From NCBI GenBank assembly GCA_020726505.1, contig JAHLEZ010000006.1:1054001-1118000 (forward strand): 64,000 nucleotides of DNA, read 5' to 3'. Source of the DNA: Leptodontidium sp. MPI-SDFR-AT-0119. Lineage: Eukaryota > Ascomycota > Leotiomycetes > Helotiales > Leptodontidiaceae. The notes beneath the pieces were generated by a model that saw only the letters and a list, made by a program, of their open reading frames with translations, was not told the DNA's origin and searched no databases. Positions within the stretch are counted from its first letter, which is position 1. Every line of letters begins with the position of its first letter. A program made the translations under genes and the position numbers. Of this stretch, positions 21,258 through 43,839 are shown piece after piece.

Positions 21258-22994
21258 ATGAAGACGGCCGCTTATGCCGCGGTCCTCAACCACTCCAGGA
21301 GGACGTCGACCACCAGGGAAGATGAGGGCCGGGTCAACTATAACTATGAGCCTGTCGCCCTCGAGGAAGAGACACTGGGCCGTGAAGAAATTCGATTCAG
21401 TACCGACTTGGACGCAGAACACCACATTCTTCTGGCACAGCACCTCAGGGAGTTTAGAAAGAACAATAGGAACAGAACTTGGATTACCATCATGGGTGCT
21501 CTTGGAGTCTTCTTGTTCTTCTACTTGGCCATTGCGTAAGTTTGTCACTCAGATCTGCATGATATAGATCGGAGGGTATAAATTTTTTTTTTAAATTATA
21601 TATTTTGCTAATGTGGAAACAGTGACCATACTATTCACCATGTTAAAGCATCATGTGATGGCTTAGATGGCTTCACATGCTCACCTGAGATATCCCGTTT
21701 CTGGGGCCAGAGCACTCCCTATTTCTCGGTGGCTTCAGAGATTGCAACAGAAGTCCCAAACCAGTGTCAGATCACATTTGCACAAATCCTTTCCCGTCAT
21801 GGTGCTCGGGATCCCACGGCTAGCAAGACTGTTAGGTACCAAGAGCTGGTCGACCGCATCCACGCCAACGCTACATCTTACAGCAAGAGCTTTGCCTTCA
21901 TCAAAGATTACAAGTACACTTTAGGAGCTGATCAGCTTACCACCTTTGGCCAGAAGCAGCTGGTGAACTCGGGTACTAAGTTCTATGAAAGATATAGGAC
22001 TCTCGCCCAAAGTATCACTCCTTTCGTTCGCACGTCTGGACAAGAGCGAGTCATAGAATCCGCTCAGAACTGGACTCAAGGCTTTCATACTGCACGTCTC
22101 CAAGACGCCAGTTCTACGGCCAACGAAAGTCTACCGTTCAATATGGTTCTCATAAGCGAAGAGGCTGGGCAAAACAACACGCTCGACCATGGCCTTTGCA
22201 CGAATTTCGAAGAAGGCTCTATCAACGATATCGGCGACAACGCTGCGGCTCTTTGGCAAGCTTTATTCGCACCAGCCATCACCACTCGCTTGAACGAGAA
22301 TCTACCAGGCGCGAACCTGACAGATGACGACACGGTCATGATGATGGATCTCTGCCCTTTTAACACAGTCGCCAACGACGACGGCACCCTCCACCCCTTC
22401 TGCAACCTCTTCACAGCTGCCGAATGGCAACAATACGACTATCTCCAAACACTGGGCAAATACTACAGCTACTCTATGGGAAACCCCCTAGCACCAACCC
22501 AAGGCGTAGGCTTCACCAACGAACTCATCGCCCGCATGACTAACTCTGCCGTTATCGACCACACGAGCACGAACTCCACTCTAGACTCCTCACCTGCTAC
22601 ATTCCCACTAGAAGCCATTCTCTACGCCGATTTCAGCCACGATAACGACATGATGACTATTTTCAGCGCCATCGGCCTTTTCAACTCTACAGCGCCGTTG
22701 TTGAATACCACTCTAATGAATTCCAATGAGACGAATGGTTATACGGCTAGTCGTATCGTGCCGTTTAGTTCGAGGGCTTATTTCGAGAAAATGGTGTGTG
22801 TGGGCGAAGCAGAGGAGATGGTGAGAGTGGTTATCAATGACCGTGTTATGCCGTTGGATACTTGTGGTGGAGATGCGCTTGGAAGGTGTACTCTGAGTGC
22901 GTTTGTGGATAGTCTCTCGTTTGCGAGAGCGGGTGGGTTTTGGGATAGTTGCTTCACGCCGCCGGCTGGGAATAGCACCTTGCGGTTGAGATGA
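21258..22994 (+). CDS. Histidine acid phosphatase (phytase-like), membrane-anchored
   Basis: Two exons (21258-21535, 21623-22994; 87-nt intron with an AT-rich T10 tract) give 549 residues. The catalytic signature RHGARDP lies near residue 150. The distal catalytic pair is in the context YADFSHDNDMM near residue 455, and about ten N-glycosylation sequons are present. Family members use the RHG histidine as phosphoryl acceptor and the HD aspartate as proton donor on phytate or other phosphomonoesters. Instead of a cleaved signal peptide, residues 1-75 are hydrophilic and acidic, followed by a single hydrophobic segment (WITIMGALGVFLFFYLAIA). That predicts a type II membrane protein with the catalytic domain outside the cytosol or in the vacuole. 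Substrate specificity cannot be read from sequence. Confidence 0.9.
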
Positions 22995-26398: not shown

Positions 26399-29300
26399 AT
26401 GGTCGTCATGGTCTCGAATGGCAACAGCCCCGCGGGGGCTTTCGCGCCTGTACTGACGGCTATGTCCACCATGCGCGATGGTCAGAGGGAACAGAAGAAG
26501 GCTGCGCATGCCTATTTGGAGAGCTTTCAGAAATCGGTATGTTGCCCAAGTGCTGGGTTGCGGCTACGACATTGGAGGATGAGGCTCACCGATTTCGCAG
26601 GCGGAAGCATGGCAGGTCACCATCGGCATTCTACAATCTACCGCAGACCCAGAGGCTAAACTCTTCGCGGCTACAACGTTGAGAGGAAAGGTAGGGCAAC
26701 CAGACGGTCGATATGGGGTGCAGAGGTGTTGACGGTGCTAGATAACCTACGATGTTACCCAAATCCCAAGTGATGCGCTGCCCCTACTCCGAGACCAAGT
26801 GCTGGAGCTTCTGAAAGTCTTCGCGACTGGACCTCGACCTATCCGAATTCAACTCTGTGTGTGTTTGGCTATTTTGGCGATACAGATGACTGGTTGGAAG
26901 GATGTGGTACAAGTGGTTGTTTCAACCTTGGGCAGCAGCCCCGAGAGCCACGCCTGTATCCTGGATTTCCTCAAAGTTCTTCCCGAAGAAGTCACCGAGG
27001 GACGAAAAATCAATTTGACTGTATGTGGGCCGAGAAACACCATCCTCCGAGAATTTACAACGACGCTGGGTGGGCGGGAGAATACGTGTATAAAGTCTAA
27101 TGCGTTATATTAGGAAGCTGAGCTGCAACAAAGGACACAGGAATTATTGGGAGATAACGCAGCGATTGTCGTTCAACTTCTGATTAACTATGCCCAATCA
27201 TCAGGTATGAAGCTTCCGGGTTGGGGGTGCTCTTCAACTAATGGAATGCCATAGATACTGCGGCAACAAATCCACAACTACTGGAAGTCATAACATCATG
27301 GCTACGCGAAGTACCAGTATCTGATGTTGTGAACTCTCCACTTTTGAATGTCGTATTCAGTGCCCTGGACAGTGACCGGTCATTCGAAGCAGCAACGGAT
27401 TGTCTCTGCGCGATCTTCAAGGAAACTCGCGATGTGGACGACAACCTTTCAACAATTCAAATCCTTTTACCACGAGTAATTGCCTTACAGCCTCGAATCG
27501 CGCAAGCACAACAACAAGAAGATACGGAACTCTTCAAAGGTGTCACGCGCATATTTGCTGAAGCAGGTGAAGCCTGGGTCGTCCTTATTGCTCGTGATCC
27601 TGGAGTCTTCCGCCCTCTTGTGGAAGCTGTCCTAGAATGCGCCGCAAGAGATATGGATAGAGATGCAATCGCTCTAACATTCATTTTCTGGTATGAGCTG
27701 AAACTGTACCTCATTCTGGAGAGATATATTGAAGCTCGTATGCAATACATGGATGTGTATTCAAAGCTCGTGGATGTTATGTTGAAGGAGCTTGAGTTCC
27801 CATCAGCTGACGGGCCGAATTCTTCGGACCTCTTTGATGGCGATCGAGAGGCGGAAGAGAAGTTCCGGGAATTCAGACACCACATGGGCGATGTATTGAA
27901 GGATTGCTGCGAGATTATGGGCGTGACAGAATGCCTATCCAAAGTTCTTGATCGTATCAAGGCCTGGATGGGCTCATATGCTGGAATGGCAACTCACGAA
28001 TCTGTTCCCCACTGGCAACAACTTGAAGCACCTCTTTTCAGCATGCGGGCTTTGGGAAGAATGGTTGACAAGGATGAAGACATCATTCTCCCTCAGATAA
28101 TGCCACTGATTGTCCAGATTCCCCACCATGAGAAACTACGATTTGCCACCATTATGGTTCTCGGTCGCTATACTGAATGGACCTCCAACCACCCAGAACT
28201 CCTTGAGTCTCAATTCAAATACATCGTTTCGTCGTTTGAGACCGACTCAAAGGAAATAGTCCGAGCTGCGGCGATGGCTATGAAATTCTTCTGCACGGAT
28301 TGCAAGCATCAACTTGGTGGCCAGGTTGTTCAACTTCAACACTTCTACAACCAAACACTCGACAAGCTACCTCTAATCAGTCAGGAGGAATTGACGGAAG
28401 GTGTCGCGTCAGTTGTTGCGGTTCAACCCCCAGGACAAATTTTCGACCTCTTGAAACTCTATTGCGATCCACTGATGGCTAGACTTATGGCCCTTGCTAA
28501 CCAGGCTTCAGATGACGAAGGCAAACTAGCAGTTGCTGGTAGGTTTTTGCTATTTCTGTTGGGCCAACTCATTACGCTAATCATTTTCTAGATCATCTGC
28601 AGTTGATTACGACCTTTATTCAAATCGTCAAGCCGTATGTAGAGCCCGATCAGGAGAATCCAGCAGTTAGATACTGCCAGGAGATTTTCCCAATCTTGTC
28701 AACAATCCTCGACACTTTCATGACCTTCACACCAATTTGCGAACGAATTTGTCGGAACTGGCGCCACATGGTTATTTCATACCGGACAGCGATTTCGCCA
28801 CTCCTTCCAGCTATGGCAACCAAGCTCGCAAGTGGATTTGCTACTTCAAGACAAGGCTGCTTCCTCTGGGCTACAAGCGCCATTCTGCGGGAGTTCTCCG
28901 AAGACCGTGAGCATGTGGATGACCAGACAACAGAAGCCATTTACACATTTTTCGAGGCTCAATCTACCAACATGCTGCGTATCATGAACGACCTACTCCC
29001 ACAAGAGACACCGGATGTTATCGAGGATTTCTACCGTCTCCTCGTTGACGCCTTGCTTTACTATCCCCATAAGCTGGTACACTCTCAGCTCTTCACTCCC
29101 ATTTTCCAGGCTGGTGTTTCAGCCTTGGCTCTGGAGCAGCGGGATCCCCTCATCGCTGTCCTCCACTATATTCGCGATGTCATCGGATATGGTGGCGAGA
29201 ACCCTCCCAGCTCGACCAATGCCGCCAATCCTCCTGAAATTCAAAGAGTGGTTCAACAACTCATTCTATCAAATGGTGAGCATCTTGTCAAGCAAATTCT

Positions 29301-31063: not shown

Positions 31064-31070
31064 AAAAAAA
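31064..31070 (-). terminator. T7 run, candidate RNA polymerase III terminator
   Basis: Seven consecutive T on the minus strand, beginning 16 nt after the predicted discriminator base of the tRNA. The preceding 264-bp transcription unit contains no run of four T. This is the arrangement expected if RNA polymerase III reads through all the introns and stops here. Confidence 0.6.
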
Positions 31071-31086
31071 TTTACTTCATATCAGA

Positions 31087-31350
31087 GGGCTTTAGAATCG
31101 TCAGCGACGAGTTTCGATGAACTATGTTCATAGATTTACGTACCTCAACCGGGATTTGAACCCGGGGCCTGTCACAGTCATTCTCTAGAGAAAGAGAGGG
31201 AGTTATCCCGAAGCAACTGAAGCAACATTAGAATTGTCACGGATATCACGGGAATACGTTGCGAGCTCACCAATCATACCACTATCAAGCCAATGTCAGT
31301 TTGAATTTGTGGTTTGGACAAGTCATCTGTCTTACCTAGACCATTGAGCC
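31087..31350 (-). tRNA. tRNA-Pro(CGG) interrupted by three spliceosomal-type introns plus a canonical intron
   Basis: Exons (minus strand): 31350-31336 GGCTCAATGGTCTAG; 31281-31271 TGGTATGATTG; 31216-31207 TTGCTTCGGG; 31176-31144; 31089-31087 CCC. Joined they give a 72-nt tRNA. The acceptor stem GGCTCAA/TTGAGCC has seven perfect pairs. The D-arm reads exactly like fungal tRNA-Pro. The anticodon stem GTTGC/GTGAC closes with two G-U pairs around loop TTCGGG-T (anticodon CGG), and the T-arm is CCGGG-TTCAAAT-CCCGG. Removed pieces: intron 1 31335-31282, intron 2 31270-31217 and intron 3 31143-31090, each exactly 54 nt. Donors are GTAAGA, GTGAGC and GTACGT; branch sites ACTGAC, TCTAAT and GCTGAC; acceptors TAG, CAG and AAG. 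A 30-nt insert at 31206-31177 sits at the canonical 37/38 position. Without intron 3 removal, positions 71-72 read GT and the acceptor end mispairs. Inference: a tRNA needing both the spliceosome and tRNA endonuclease. Alternative: a dead tRNA invaded by introns, but all stems are intact. Confidence 0.85.
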
Positions 31351-32534
31351 AAATCCGAGTGATTTAAACTTTTTTGACCTTATCTCGCACTATAACAATA
31401 ATAGCACAATTGACGTAAGAGATTCTACGCTCCCTGGTCTTCCAATGAGTGGTTTGTGGGCGCGCCAAGGTGGGGAAACTTATCATCGAATCAGACCACA
31501 ATGTCTTGCAGCTTTTACGTAAGAGGTTTCACTCGTGGAGCCGAGCAACGCTACAAGCACAACGCGGATTTGAACTATTTGCAAACATACAAACAGCGAA
31601 GACAGAAAGACTTGCTTGGATTTCTGGTTTTTTTTTTTGCTTTGGAAGTTCACTTGCAAGAAAGCGAGATGCCGTCACTCTTCGTACTTCACCGCTCCTT
31701 GTGGAATACGCTAAGGCCGATATATCCAACGGACTTCACACCAGCAATGGCACAAGAGAAAGAGTGGGAATGAACAATTCTGGATCTTTCTTGGCCGTAC
31801 GGTGTAGTCTCAAGAATCGTACAAACTCAATGTGGAATTTCAGGACTTCAAAATCGAAGCGAGACTCCTCCTCCAACGTCGAACTCCCCGGGTACAGAAG
31901 TCACCAGGCTCCCCGACATCATCAATACACAAATTTTACGAAGACTTTCTTGTGGTTAAGAAGCAGCCCACACGTCTCCACGGTTTTGCTTCTCCTGCTA
32001 TGAAGTACCTTTGCACAGTGCTGTACACAATCAGCAGGAATTTTCTCCATGGCTACTAGTGTTTATCTTTGCTCCCGTGACGTAATGATAGAAGAATATT
32101 TGGGTAACTTCTTCTTTCCATGCATTCTAATTTATCATAACTTTGACTTTTATTGTTTGATGTGGTCAACCTACCCTGCATGAGGGAAATACTGTGTCCA
32201 CTCTATGGTCAAAAATACAGCTGGTTCCATCGCCCTCGTCCCAAAAAAATACCTCCACCAGGAGATACATGCGTGCGAGGAAATACAGCAAAGTTGCGAA
32301 CCAGTACGGGAAGACCGCTATGGTGCCGACCTGGGCTGGCTGTAATCAGCATGGTCAAAGTAAATCACAATCACATGTTCTTATTGAATGTTGTGAAGTT
32401 ACGCTACGACTCACCACTTGTTCGGTAGTAGCTAGTAGTCTCACAATTGACTTCACAGTCATCCAAACGGATGATCTACACAGACTTGATCCGAGCCGCC
32501 AGGAATCCGTCTCAATCAGAGCATTCTCAATTCT
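31351..32534. other. Gene-poor stretch, no supportable gene
   Basis: About 1.2 kb upstream of the split tRNA. The longest plus-strand frame (31449-32003) contains a T-run and has no domain, signal peptide or conserved look, so I do not call it. A tRNA-like B-box (GTTCAAATCC, minus strand, near 31562) lacks a matching stem and is treated as chance. Confidence 0.45.
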
Positions 32535-33659: not shown

Positions 33660-35518
33660 TCAATACTTTGGAAGGTATCCACATGTATCATGCTGGGAGT
33701 AATATATCTCTGGGTACCTATTTCTGGGTTGACTTTCTGGCTGCCAAATCGTGGCTGGATAAAATCTATCCCTGGCCAATTCCCTTCGTTTGGCTATCTT
33801 GATGAGATAGTAGATCCGACCATAGCAAAGTTGTAGCTCGAAAGATGCAACGTATTTTGAGTCTGGCCAGCTCCTAGGGTCTTTGAAATAGCCTCCACCT
33901 GGAAGTTTTATTGGGTCAGTCGATGTGTACGCGCCGAGAACCCGATCAGGGTTTGCTGTTATAGCATCCTCCGGCGTTTCCACAACGTCACACCATGGCC
34001 TGTGGTATGGCAATGGTGTATTAACACTGTCTGTTGAAAATTGCTGCAGACCAGTACAGAGCGTTAGCTGATTGAAATTGCTGGCATTTTCTTCGCAGAA
34101 CTGCAACACCCTTAGTATGTGTCCGGTTTGTGAATCTGTTCCAGGCAACGATCCTCCCAGTATTACATCCGGGCTCCTAAATATCTCGTCTGACTGATAT
34201 TCGAGGAGGTAGATAATTCTAGCTCCCCTGAACCGGCCACCTTCCCACCTAATCCATTCTGACGACCAATCACTCACAGCCATACCTGGGGGTAAGCTTT
34301 TTACCGAATCAAAACAGATGCCAACAGCTTCTTGGTGTGATACATTTGGCGAGATCTTGGGGCTTTGCCGTACAAAGAATCGGAGAGGTTGGGGCTCCCT
34401 CAGCCCACTGTCGTGCAATTCGAAACCGTTAAAGGCGGTTTCTTGTAGTCGTCTAGGCAGTCTTGATTGTTTTGTTCCTAGGTTTTCATCGATGTGAAGC
34501 AAGATATCGGCCCCGACTCTGACAAACTCACCCCCAGAATAGGATATCTTCTTCAGCAGTGGCTCGTAACTCCATTCGCTACCATTTATGCTAATAATAG
34601 CGGCGTAAAGGGACTCGCTGAGGTCATTTAGAACGAGTGCCATGAGAAGCTCGACATTGACACCTCGACCAGTAAGCGTTGCTGCTGTGTTCGTAGCCAT
34701 TGTTGAAGTGCAACGTCCTTTAACATCTGGTGATCTTGAGAAGTATGCTGGGGACTTTGCAAGCAATCTCCACAATGGTGTTTGGATCGCTTCCTTTTCT
34801 GTGCTTCTCCAAAGAAATATGGAATTGTCATCTGAAGACTTCAAGATGGCTTCCTGAAGTCTCAAAAATGTCTGCTCGCCACCCTCTCCATACAACAGTG
34901 GGATGTTGACATCAAAAATTACGAGAAGGCAGTACGCGATGTCCTCTGGAACAGAAGTTTGCCGCCAGGCTCGACATCTATATCCCCACCAAGTAGGATG
35001 CTCACAGGTATTTTGGTGATAGAGCGAATAGCATGTTTCAGGCGGTCCTTACTCCCGAGATATGTCCAATTCTTGTTGTAGAATCGAAGTTCTTTGGGGG
35101 CGATCAGCTCTTGGAAGGTCCAGCCTCGTGTGAACCAGGCGCTTTGTTCAAATTCCGAAGTCTCTGGATCCAGTGCAGCCTCTATAGTGGATGAAGATAC
35201 GTCAGATAGATACGCATAGCAAAGTGTGGCCTCCTTGTAATAGCGAAACATTGAGTTGATGGCTTCGGACAACTCGGCACTACTTGTCTTGTCGATGCAA
35301 CAGGTATCGATCCAGATGTACTTGAAGCCATGACGGGCAGCTACAACACAGCTGTAGTGGATCTTGATCATTCCTTGAGGATCACGCATTCCTCCGGGCT
35401 TCATATCTCCAAAGGTCACTTCCTTCTCATCCCACCGATGCGATAGAATTGCATATTCAGGGGGAACCTTAGCCGCGAAATCCTCCACTTCTATGCTTGC
35501 AGTGTTCAACAGACGCAT
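33660..35518 (-). pseudogene. HET-domain (heterokaryon incompatibility) gene broken by internal deletion/frameshift
   Basis: The first frame (35518-34919) has a full HET domain: MRLLNTASIEVEDF at the start, YAILSHRWDEKEVTFGDM, FKYIWIDTCCIDKTSSAELS, a block with INSMFRYYKEATLCYAYLSD, and WFTRGWTFQELIAPKELRFY. It then reaches a stop just after GGDIDVEPGG. In a second frame the expected continuation appears: RQTSVPEDIAYCLLVIFDVN, IPLLYGEGGEQTF and LRLQEAILKSSDDNSIFLW. A roughly 340-residue C-terminal region follows down to 33660. Relatives have about ten further residues (a segment like SVAQRMSWA) between the two halves, so a small deletion that also shifts frame best explains this. Intact HET proteins trigger cell death on fusion with an unlike strain; this copy should encode only the N-terminal HET part. 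Confidence 0.75.
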
Positions 35519-36120
35519 TGCTGCGGACCTGTACACACGATGATATGGTTCGCCAGGGTCGGTTCAAACACCTCCTCGATTGTTTTAAGTCCTGGATGAT
35601 TTTGACGACACAAGATAGGAGTGTAGAATTGTCTTCCAAAGCGCTCGCTGAAGAACTTCAGTGTCACTCTTTGTATCCCGGCGAAAGATGGCTGGCTGCC
35701 TTACTGCGTGGGGATCTGTGGCTGAAGACATCATTGGCTTGTAAACGACAGTAGCTAGGTGCTTTGGAGAAGAAAAAGAAACCGAGATTCGCCAACTTGC
35801 ATTTTGCATCATAAAATATTCATGAAACATAGACAAAAAAGGGGCAACGAAAAAGAGGCACCGCCGGATGGATCTGTTTTGACCTAGGAATGTATTATTA
35901 AGAAGACTTTATAGCATTTAGTCAAAAGAAAGAACACGGCCCAACTGAAGTCCAACGATCCGTGCAAATTGCAGAACTCCACAAGACTAATTCAATGATG
36001 GATACCTAAGACGAACATCAGGATTTGAGGGTTTTTTCAGTTCAATAATATGCTTCTGTAATGTGCTGCTTGCTCAGATATGGGAGAAATTCGAGGTACA
36101 GAAATACTTTCACCATGATA
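35519..36120. other. Intergenic, no gene recognised
   Basis: 600 bp upstream of the HET gene; presumably its promoter and the 3' region of the next minus-strand gene. No convincing frame or RNA gene. Confidence 0.45.
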
Positions 36121-40470: not shown

Positions 40471-40954
40471 GAGCTGCGAGTTACAATAGAGCGTTTGTGT
40501 AATGTAGCGCCTGTACAATAATCTCCAATGGATGCAATGAGTTATGAACCTAGGCCTGGAGATTCCATGAGGTTGGTCCATTGAGCAAAACCACGTTTAC
40601 TTGTTGACAGGTCAACCTCGGTTCGAAACCCGTCTGGACATGAGCCAGAGAAATGTGGATATATCGCATTCGTCTAACTTATTTGAGAAATGAAAACTTC
40701 TCTCTTGAGCCAAAAGACGTTTCAAAGAATACAACATATGCACGTGATGATTAATGAATTCTTGGAGCTTGGATTTCTTGGCGCGATCCCGCGCGTCAAC
40801 TGCAAGCGCCCCCTTCCCAACTTTAAGTCTCACCTTGACTTGAGACAACAGGCATCTCCACAAGCTGTTCTGCGCCTCGCCTCGACCTGGCACCACCTCA
40901 TGCAATTGCATGATATCTGGTCTCCCCTTGGAACTGAAACCGAAGATCCACAGC

Positions 40955-43839
40955 ATGTCGTCCAAGGCAGTGACTCGAAAACGCAGCAGAGCGCAACTCC
41001 AGGAGCAGGATGAACTGGCTCCAGAGAAGGACAGCGCGCCTCTTTTGAGTACCAAGAAGAGGAAACTCAATGCCGATGGCCCACTGCCCGCGAGTGGAGG
41101 CACATTTGGCTCAATCAAGCGCTCAATTGGTGGAATTTTCGGTCTCAATAAGAATGGAAAGGAGAATTTGCCCAAGGAGGACGAGCAAGACGAACTTGCC
41201 GACGACAATGACGACAGCGATGTAATAAATGACGAATCCACAAAGGATATTTGGGAAGTTGAGGGGTCGGTGCCTGACGAGGCAGTTGGAAAGAAGCGTA
41301 CTCCTGGGCGCAACAGATTAGTGGCAACCCCAACGAGCACAAAGTCAGGGCAGAAAGGCAGTGCGAAGTCGAGAAAGGACAAAGAGACATCTAGTAAGAA
41401 AGGAGGAGACATATGGGAGGTGCCTGAATCTCCGCCCAGAGGCACCAGAAGCATCTCAACGACAGAGCGAGCAAAAGCTCTTCTGGCGCCTCCTGTGAAG
41501 AACTCGAGCCCCGAGCCCAAGAAACGAAAGCCTGGGCGGCCTAGGAAATCGGACGTTCTGAAGAATGCGAAAAAGCTTTCGAACAAGGCAATACGGGAGA
41601 AGATGATGGCAGGAGGCGGTGGTGGATCAGAGCAGGAGGACGAGGACGAGACTGCTACACCTACAAGAAGACGGAGGAAGATGGCTCGCTCCGAAGAGGG
41701 TAATGAGCTCGAATCTGTTCCCCAATCTGGGAAACCGTCCACAATCAAGAAACGGGGTCGGCCATCTCAGGTACAAGCTGCTGAGACGGCTGAGTCGAGA
41801 CAAGCGCCGAAAGGTATCCTGACACCTGTGAAGCAAAGAGCTGGGAGGGGAAGAAAAAATGTGGTCTTTGACGCGGGCGATGAAGTTGACTTGGGATTCA
41901 GGGACCTACCATCATCTGCTGGAACTGCGAAGTCTAATAAATTTAAAAAACCACTTCAGAGCCCATCTGCTGCTCTGGCTTCAAAATTCAAGACGAAAGT
42001 TGCAGAGCCAGAACTTGCGTCTGAGGACGAGGTAGAACAGGAGGAAGACGTAGAAGCCGAAGAAGTGGAAATGGAAGAAGATGCCGAGTCCGATGAGATT
42101 GATGATGAAATGTGCGAAATTTGTTCCGGACTTGAGTCAACAACGAAGAACCCAATTATGTTTTGTGATGGGAAAGACTGCGAATTTGCAGTTCACAGGG
42201 AATGCTACCAAGTTGCAAAGGTGCCAAAGGGAGACTGGTTCTGCCGAGATTGTGAGCCCAAAGCTGAGAACGAGGACCCGTTTGCACAATTACAAGCTAC
42301 GGCTCCTGCTACCGAAAATGCCAACATTCCAGATATTGAGGGATTCGGGGATCAGTTGAAGCATATGCAGCGCACTCTGTTGGACAGGTTGACGGGTCAG
42401 CGACGGACTAAGCTACGAGGACACGACGAGGAGATGCAAAAAGTCCACCAAGTTGTGGAACAGACAGTCCTGGCCGGAGAAGGAAATTCTATGCTTGTGA
42501 TCGGGGCAAGAGGTTGTGGTAAAACGACGGTATGTCTAGTATTGCTCGAGGAATGAGGCATAGCTAATTGGTATTTAGCTCGTGGAGTCCGTGATATCAG
42601 ACCTTGGGAAAGATCACAGGAACAGCTTCCATGTTGTTCGGTTGAATGGTTTCATTCACACTGACGATAAGTTGGCACTAAAGGAGACTTGGCGACAACT
42701 GGGTCGGGAGATGGAACTGGAGGATGAAAATGCGGGCAAGGTAAGGCACAATGCTGCCAGTCATTTGCGCACTTCTAATATGCATGCAGACGAGCAACTA
42801 CTCCGATACACTGACGTCCCTTTTGGCTCTCTTATCCCATCCCTCAGAGATTTCCGAATCAGAGCCAGAGCAGACTGCTAAATCTGTGATATTCATCCTA
42901 GATGAATTCGATCTCTTCACTACACATCCACGTCAGACTCTGCTCTACAATCTGTTTGATATAGCACAAGCGAGGAAAGCACCAATTGTTGTACTCGGTT
43001 TGACAACAAGGGTCGACGTGGTTGAGAGTCTTGAGAAAAGAGTCAAGAGTCGTTTTAGTCATCGTTATGTGCATTTGTCACTACCGCGGAGTATCCCAGC
43101 ATTCTGGGATATCTGCAAGGGTGGCCTCTTAGTTGAGCCAGACGAGCTTGATGACGAGAGCCTCGGCTTCGGGGGCCCCGGCCAGGATGAGTTTGTCTCC
43201 TTCTGGCAATCAATGATCGAGGTGAGAAACTTAGTAATGATCCATTTGTCCGTCTGCTAATCGACCCAGGACCTATACAACAAAGATGCAATTTTCAAAC
43301 ATCATATCCAATCAGAGTTCTACCGATCGAAGTCTGTCGCAGCATTCTTCACTTCATGCATTATTCCAATTGCAAATCTGGCACTAGGAAACCTGCCTCT
43401 CACAGGCATGCCTTTTACGCACACCTTGTCCGCTCCCGACTCTAAACTCCTTATCTTGCAAGGGCTCTCCGAGCTAGAGCTTGCACTTCTCATTGCCGCA
43501 GCACGCCTCGACATCATCCTTGACACGGACACCTGCAACTTTGCAATGGCTTATGACGAGTACAGTAATTTGACCTCCCGATACAAGATTCAAACCTCAA
43601 GCACTGGAGTTACTGCTCTTGGGGCAAGTGCAAAGGTATGGGGCCGCGATGTTGCTTTGGGTGCGTGGGAGAGACTAGCTGAATATGGATTGCTCGTTCC
43701 TGCAGGAATCGGTGGGGGCAGCGGAAGGGATTCTGGAGCAGGAGGCCGCATGTGGAAGATTGACGTGGGCCTCGAGGAGATAACGGGAAGTGTCGACAGC
43801 TTGAGTGGGGTTATGGCCAAATGGTGTCGAGAGATCTGA
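40955..43839 (+). CDS. orc4: Origin recognition complex subunit 4 with AT-hooks and a PHD finger
   Basis: AAA+ subunit of ORC, which binds replication origins and loads MCM helicase in the nucleus. Four exons (40955-42529, 42579-42740, 42790-43221, 43270-43839) give 912 residues. I start at 40955 (MSSKAVTRKRSRAQL); an in-frame ATG at 40910 exists. The N-terminal 370 residues are disordered and basic with AT-hook-type motifs (KRKPGRPRK near residue 192, KKRGRPS near 267, AGRGRK near 290). After an acidic run, a Cys4-His-Cys3 PHD finger spans about 386-432 (CEIC, CDGKDC, VHREC, WFCRDC). The AAA+ domain follows: Walker A VIGARGCGKTT, split from the rest by intron 1 directly after KTT, and Walker B VIFILDEFD. 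The C-terminal winged-helix region ends MAKWCREI. A 378-codon antisense frame over exon 1 is a composition shadow. Confidence 0.93.

Follow-up and report, generated by a model that had tools for sequence, protein, structure and literature searches.

The window analysed here, a stretch of 64,000 nucleotides from the genome of Leptodontidium sp. MPI-SDFR-AT-0119, harbors on its minus strand what is very probably (we put the chance at roughly nine in ten) a functional nuclear gene for tRNA-Pro(CGG), one that carries three U2-type spliceosomal introns in addition to a normal tRNA intron, and whose Pol III transcript would be spliced by the spliceosome and then by the tRNA endonuclease. The locus (31087-31350, minus strand) comprises 264 nt, and its five blocks of 15, 11, 10, 33, and 3 nt yield a complete 72-nt tRNA-Pro(CGG) once they are joined. 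ARAGORN and our exon parse confirm to the base this arrangement of minus-strand blocks, which a preliminary description had proposed from the sequence alone. Likewise, the pieces between the blocks are, as it had reported, 54, 54, 30, and 54 nt in length, and the three 54-nt pieces possess the GT and AG-type ends ascribed to them. The features of the locus, in the order in which they would be transcribed and with the basis of each assignment in brackets, are the following:

31379..31383, minus strand: TATA-like ATAAG at -33 relative to the tRNA start (sequence, ATARS count)
31336..31350, minus strand: exon 1, nt 1-15 (sequence, ARAGORN, exon/insert parse)
31282..31335, minus strand: spliceosomal-type intron 1, 54 nt, GTAAGA..ACTGAC..TAG, in the D loop at 15/16 (sequence, signal scan)
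31271..31281, minus strand: exon 2, 11 nt, D arm to nt 27 (sequence)
31217..31270, minus strand: spliceosomal-type intron 2, 54 nt, GTGAGC..TCTAAT..CAG, at 27/28 (signal scan)
31207..31216, minus strand: exon 3, 10 nt, carrying the anticodon CGG (ARAGORN)
31177..31206, minus strand: canonical tRNA intron, 30 nt, at 37/38 (ARAGORN)
31144..31176, minus strand: exon 4, 33 nt, 3' side of the anticodon stem to nt 70, T arm included (ARAGORN, parse)
31152..31162, minus strand: B box GGTTCAAATCC, uninterrupted, presumed from the general box consensus (sequence)
31090..31143, minus strand: spliceosomal-type intron 3, 54 nt, GTACGT..GCTGAC..AAG, in the acceptor stem at 70/71 (sequence, signal scan)
31087..31089, minus strand: exon 5, CCC, nt 71-73, its first two nucleotides pairing with G2 and G1 (pairing count)
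31064..31070, minus strand: T7 run, Pol III terminator-like, 16 nt downstream (sequence)

The positions 15/16, 27/28, 37/38, and 70/71 follow standard tRNA numbering, in which the preliminary description had named them correctly; in a running count, the three spliceosomal-type junctions lie after nt 15, 26, and 69. It is the 30-nt piece alone that occupies the location at 37/38. The branch-like motifs ACTGAC, TCTAAT, and GCTGAC are present as had been noted; the distance from their A to the 3' end of the respective intron is 14, 11, and 11 nt. Joining the blocks restores the helices: 20 of the 21 stem positions are paired, among them all seven of the acceptor stem, two of whose pairs are provided by nucleotides beyond the last intron. 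At 3 and 11 nt, two of the exons are very small, which we count against our reading. When the three 54-nt pieces are removed, ARAGORN calls a tRNA-Pro(CGG) with a 30-nt intron at 37/38; its sole call on the raw region is a tRNA-Thr with a 123-nt intron, which we take as spurious. Over the whole window, ARAGORN at default settings detected no tRNA, and Rfam at the gathering score matched no family, group I and group II self-splicing introns included; the pieces themselves are 54 nt long.

With respect to its surroundings, one protein encoded in the window shares 93% of its residues with a counterpart from Cadophora sp. M221 and 77-81% with those from C. gregata, C. malorum, and Rhynchosporium graminicola. 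HET, 2EXR, and DUF3292 domains are present in the window. Taken together, this places the fungus close to Cadophora among the Helotiales (Leotiomycetes). A HET-domain protein is encoded at 34922-35563 (minus strand), HET genes being numerous in such fungi; the product of 40844-42553 (plus strand) is a PHD-finger protein that also matches AAA weakly.

The window gene, seen singly in the preliminary description, is one of a genome-wide set. Across 76,969,438 bases in 69 contigs, with the window residing in contig C56, at least 18 inserts of 49-79 nt interrupt 13 tRNA genes at positions from 5/6 to 70/71; this census is a lower bound, as of 58 further T-arm places listed 6 were read. In the Rfam tRNA search of the whole genome, 63 of the 2877 candidates were scored, which gave at least 46 matches. 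A T-arm pattern, whose hits do not depend on whether other parts of the tRNA are split, identified 61 places, versus 10 with the reversed pattern. Reading these by hand, we recognized 34 unsplit tRNA genes, 8 split ones, 2 tRNA-Gly-like repeats, and 17 places that are not recognisably tRNA, so that 8 of the 42 tRNA genes found in this way are split. Beyond this set, the Rfam search contributed L041 and L045, a T-arm pattern with C first L094, a DNA search with the joined gene L032, and a D-arm pattern the gene composed of L184 and L178. Because most genes were found by their T arm, the census cannot reveal inserts inside it. In the running count of each tRNA, the junctions are distributed as follows:

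Pro(CGG), window gene: 15, 26, 69
Pro(CGG), L184+L178: 5, 45
Pro(AGG), L032: 6
Pro(AGG), L059: 26, 46
Pro(AGG), L094: 26
His, L058 and L112: 12
Glu(CTC), L067 and L116: 16
Glu(TTC), L072: 6
Ala(CGC), L070: 9, 20
Arg(TCG), L041 and L045: 47

ARAGORN returned the expected isotype from the joined exons in 10 of 11 genes, with L045 ambiguous and L094 and L032 outside these 11; several isotype labels are our own hand reading, since ARAGORN misplaced some anticodons. In the tRNA-Ala(CGC) gene L070, joining regains the pair G3:U70, an identity element, and this too speaks for our reading.

Variants of the T-arm pattern gave 19 places versus 31 in the control with C first, 41 versus 59 with A first, 56 versus 23 with T first, and 63 versus 34 for the GAG type. 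Among the 56 T-first places and 4 of the 41 A-first places, ARAGORN called a single tRNA (1/60; Ser, L167), and this has a poor acceptor stem. A V-loop pattern found 52 places versus 70 in the control, and the split genes recognized among them were four already known. Pattern scans beyond this genome found no split Pro gene in viral contigs and no split His gene in other genome contigs. Several loci encountered in these searches deserve mention in their own right. L043 (C2:157428-157995) is tRNA-like and contains a long insert that starts with GTATGT near 37/38; this insert may represent another spliceosomal intron or a long intron of the ordinary tRNA type, or the locus may be a pseudogene. 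L074 and L108 are tRNA-Gly-like copies with altered 5' ends and long upstream similarity, as of a tRNA-derived repeat family. L065 and L174 share similar T-arm-like sequences within related stretches, with AGAGTAAAATCTTTTTG downstream, and possibly represent a repeat.

The inserts speak the language of messenger RNA introns. All 18 are bounded by GT..AG, and all 18 possess a CTRAY motif whose A lies 9-14 nt from the 3' end; RCTRAY at 6-36 nt is described as the fungal norm in a section of a study of U3 genes (PMC5832005). The donor conforms to GTRNG in 17 of the 18, including all three inserts of the window gene, the exception being L094 with GTCAGT, and the acceptors are CAG in ten cases, TAG in four, and AAG in four (YAG in 14/18); the AAG acceptors and the GTCAGT donor weigh against our reading. 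When the interiors of 17 inserts (the three of the window and 14 from elsewhere in the genome, without the later-found insert of L032) were shuffled 2000 times, CTRAY occurred 8-15 nt from the end in 0.84 inserts on average and in 5 at most, compared with 17/17 observed, a control that overstates the case somewhat because some inserts had been recognized by eye partly via these signals. Pairing within the tRNA constrains the insert borders independently of these signals, as does, for the tRNA-His genes, the unsplit L037, whose sequence continues without a break across the exact point at which L058 and L112 are joined. A chance origin of the signals is rejected by the branch-site shuffle together with their recurrence in 12 more genes.

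The same grammar had been claimed for the mRNA introns of neighbouring genes, and two local introns do share it with the tRNA inserts. One of them, in an importin-13-like gene (28539-28591), is 53 nt long, reads GTAGGT..GCTAAT..TAG, and joins two reading frames upon removal, as a coordinate check shows. The other, in a phytase gene (21536-21622), is 87 nt long and reads GTAAGT..GCTAAT..CAG; the aligned stretch is 29 codons longer than P0001 with its 549 residues, a surplus that equals the intron in length. At a third local place, in the Sec5 gene, the pattern used gave no intron candidate.

These data bear directly on the notion that the tRNA endonuclease cuts the inserts at non-canonical sites, as in archaea or Cyanidioschyzon merolae, with GT..AG being incidental. 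Multiple-intron tRNAs processed in this manner are known, according to sections of two articles on tRNA introns (PMC3978253; PMC4090602), and the window gene itself possesses a canonical 37/38 intron. Yet a strict bulge-helix-bulge (3-nt bulges, 4-bp central helix), the one form searched for, is complete at the borders of 0/18 inserts, with only 2 testable pairs at the last junction of the window gene. This, the CTRAY motif placed in 18/18 and the GTRNG donor in 17/18 inserts, and insert lengths that resemble the local 53-nt mRNA intron make removal by the endonuclease highly improbable. Two further properties of the inserts gave no clear result. A lack of T runs, such as a Pol III constraint on the introns would produce, is not significant (TTTT in 1/18, namely L032; shuffle mean 3.2, P 0.135). 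No clear introner-like family of common origin emerged from insert-to-insert comparisons: the top local scores, leaving aside the pair L041/L045, were 15 and 14 versus 12 in shuffles, and the mean of 8.0 versus 6.6 is to be read with the shared splice signals in mind, which raise such scores; the pair of Arg genes scored 49.

One might also suppose that insertions have turned the split genes into tRNA pseudogenes whose parts are never joined. For His (L037), Glu, and Arg, the genome does contain unsplit genes of the same isotype, as it does for Pro with another anticodon (TGG), and short insertions in the D and T arms of eukaryotic tRNA genes are supposed, in a portion of a review, to mark mostly pseudogenes (Yoshihisa 2014, PMC4090602). 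The exons of the split genes argue otherwise. In the pair of tRNA-His genes, L058 and L112, the tRNA exons are identical in 71/71 positions and the intron matches in 45/69 columns; in the tRNA-Glu pair, L067 and L116, the corresponding values are 69/69 and 32/59. In these two pairs, the exons have thus stayed identical while the inserts (54-65% alike) and the flanks (45-65%) have drifted. The tRNA-Arg pair L041/L045 (exons 72/73, intron 54/59, flanks 87-94%) is a recent copy that offers no contrast and consequently says little. The five split Pro genes have 20/21 positions paired each, and the ten comparisons among them show 4-7 double compensatory changes each. Between the two Pro(CGG) genes, 12 of 72 positions differ and four double compensatory stem changes are found; apart from a single D-stem position, which none of the five split Pro genes has paired, every pair is preserved. 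To judge from these sequences, the exon pattern fits a selected tRNA and not decaying insertions. Together with the splice signals kept in 18/18 inserts and the outcome of our search for unsplit Pro(AGG) and Pro(CGG) genes, it leaves the pseudogene interpretation with very little probability.

That search combined Rfam tRNA matches, DNA queries with the joined window gene and a joined Pro(AGG), and patterns for the T arm, the D arm, and the 27/28 split; it revealed in this genome no unsplit gene that could convincingly be assigned to Pro(CGG) or Pro(AGG). Both DNA queries are weak for split genes, and the joined Pro(AGG) returned only part of its own source. What the searches returned were L032, L059, and L094 (all AGG) and L184+L178 (CGG), every one of them split. 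A CTAAY-type intron at 27/28 was found by pattern in three genes only, the window gene and the Pro(AGG) genes L059 and L094. The preliminary description had suggested looking for another tRNA-Pro(CGG); the second gene, L184+L178, turned out to be likewise split, at other positions. An intact copy, which it had named as part of the evidence that would refute its proposal, was not convincingly found: the sole unsplit gene that ARAGORN labels Pro(CGG), L044, has a long variable arm and a D arm similar to the one in L012, a Ser gene, so that we tentatively set this label aside; L044 looks serine-type. The statement that all Pro genes found are split was dropped on inspection of the unsplit L057, in our reading a Pro(TGG) gene whose normal 37/38 intron measures about 14 nt (ARAGORN labels it GGG without an intron). 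In yeast, a Pro(TGG) isoacceptor can read all four proline codons. Since such an isoacceptor gene exists here in unsplit form, the split Pro genes need not be essential.

As to transcription, intron 1 interrupts the A box of the window gene at 15/16 and leaves the B box intact. The interrupted A box, and the fact that the spliceosome acts mainly on Pol II transcripts, might be taken to indicate that splicing is spliceosomal and occurs in a Pol II transcript, with the tRNA being released from a longer host RNA. We regard this as extremely unlikely in view of the Pol III signals of the gene, namely the intact B box, the terminator-like T7 run 16 nt downstream, and an upstream TATA-like element that is shared with ordinary tRNA genes of this genome. 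The motif ATARS is present 20-50 nt upstream of 12 of the 13 split and 44 of the 64 unsplit (ARAGORN-called) tRNA genes, compared with 3/61 in a control stretch 140-200 nt upstream. A T run of at least four within 70 nt downstream was found in 10 of the 12 split genes examined, not in L112, and with L178 read for 19 nt. A TATA-type external element may compensate for the interrupted A box; a section of one review notes that some plants and fungi have TATA boxes upstream of their tRNA genes (PMC3978253).

Splicing of a Pol III transcript would have parallels that likewise weigh against a Pol II origin. The U6 RNA of S. pombe is a Pol III transcript with a spliceosomal intron, and the U6-like locus L185 of the present genome (C13:138510-138710) contains, relative to L186, a 49-nt insert, GGC|GTAAGT..CTAAC..CAG|CCCTGCAC, that sits after GATTAGCATGGC. 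L185 scores 40.8 bits as an Rfam U6 match, under the cut-off of 44, and could be either a functional U6 gene or a degenerate copy. A further intron may end in the CACTAAAAACACTACAG that directly precedes CAATTTGAAACGATACAG at this locus.

Our preferred reading, a functional tRNA gene with spliceosomal introns, lends itself to a straightforward scheme. TFIIIB bound at the upstream TATA-like element would, together with the intact B box, recruit Pol III to the window gene, and the transcript would terminate in the T run. The spliceosome would remove the three 54-nt introns as lariats from the pre-tRNA in the nucleus; it would have to act first, because the acceptor stem and the D arm cannot form before the introns are removed. 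The acceptor stem and the tRNA body would then fold, and the folded tRNA would pass through RNase P, tRNase Z, and export, and finally the tRNA endonuclease at 37/38, to serve in translation. The same course would be followed by the transcripts of at least 12 other tRNA genes in this fungus. Maturation by the spliceosome as well as the tRNA endonuclease, as the preliminary description had envisaged, thus finds support at the level of the DNA in the recurrence of such inserts in 12 more genes, in their drift beside identical exons in two gene pairs, in the differently split second Pro(CGG) gene, and in the missing strict bulge-helix-bulge.

The inserts resemble U2-type introns of fungal mRNAs in their GT..AG ends, the GTRNG donor, the CTRAY branch 9-14 nt from the end, and a length of about 50-60 nt, but their hosts are tRNA genes with Pol III-type signals, and several lie inside helices. 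Ectopic spliceosomal introns in non-mRNA transcripts are also found in the rDNA of lichen ascomycetes, in fungal U3 genes, and in U6 of S. pombe; unlike these, the host here is a tRNA, with an enzyme pathway of its own for introns, and up to three are accommodated in 72 nt. For rDNA, such introns are treated in a section of PMC8527467, and a portion of PMC5832005 describes fungal U3 snoRNA genes with spliceosomal introns and RCTRAY signals, some paralogues having the intron and others lacking it. From portions of two articles, tRNAs that contain several introns, at many positions, are likewise known in Crenarchaeota, the Guillardia theta nucleomorph, and C. merolae, with tRNA-Pro(UGG) of Pyrobaculum islandicum having two introns besides the canonical one (PMC4090602; PMC3978253). 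As these portions have it, the introns of the archaea and of C. merolae are of the BHB type and are cut by the splicing endonuclease, whereas the inserts described here display spliceosomal signals and no strict BHB; the means by which G. theta removes its own are given there as not known. With regard to the canonical eukaryotic intron at 37/38, the 30-nt piece of the window gene is of this kind, whereas the other three lie elsewhere and bear mRNA-type signals.

A section of one review states that eukaryotic tRNA introns mostly occupy the canonical position and that non-canonical ones are supposed to be rare, nucleomorphs and C. merolae excepted; its main text contains no word beginning with "spliceosom" (PMC4090602). 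In part of a review from 2026, tRNA splicing is stated outright to be independent of the spliceosome (PMC13149111). Our literature search, which covered the open-licence full text of PMC, showed among the papers listed no earlier description of nuclear tRNA genes with spliceosomal introns.

Collectively, it appears likely from the genes compared here that the spliceosome has become a regular and partly obligatory tRNA-maturation enzyme in this lineage: whole isoacceptor sets, namely the three Pro(AGG) genes and the two Pro(CGG) genes that we found, would need mRNA-type splicing of their Pol III transcripts ahead of the tRNA endonuclease. The introns were probably gained or lost recently, as suggested by their differing positions and by the presence of split and unsplit paralogues in one genome. 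Such split genes are missed by ordinary tRNA finders. They also offer a clean system in which to follow intron gain, with a product of about 72 nt, borders fixed by base pairing, and split and unsplit paralogues side by side. If our interpretation is true, the rule that tRNA splicing is independent of the spliceosome has an exception on the scale of a genome, and translation in this fungus would be tied to the activity of its spliceosome.
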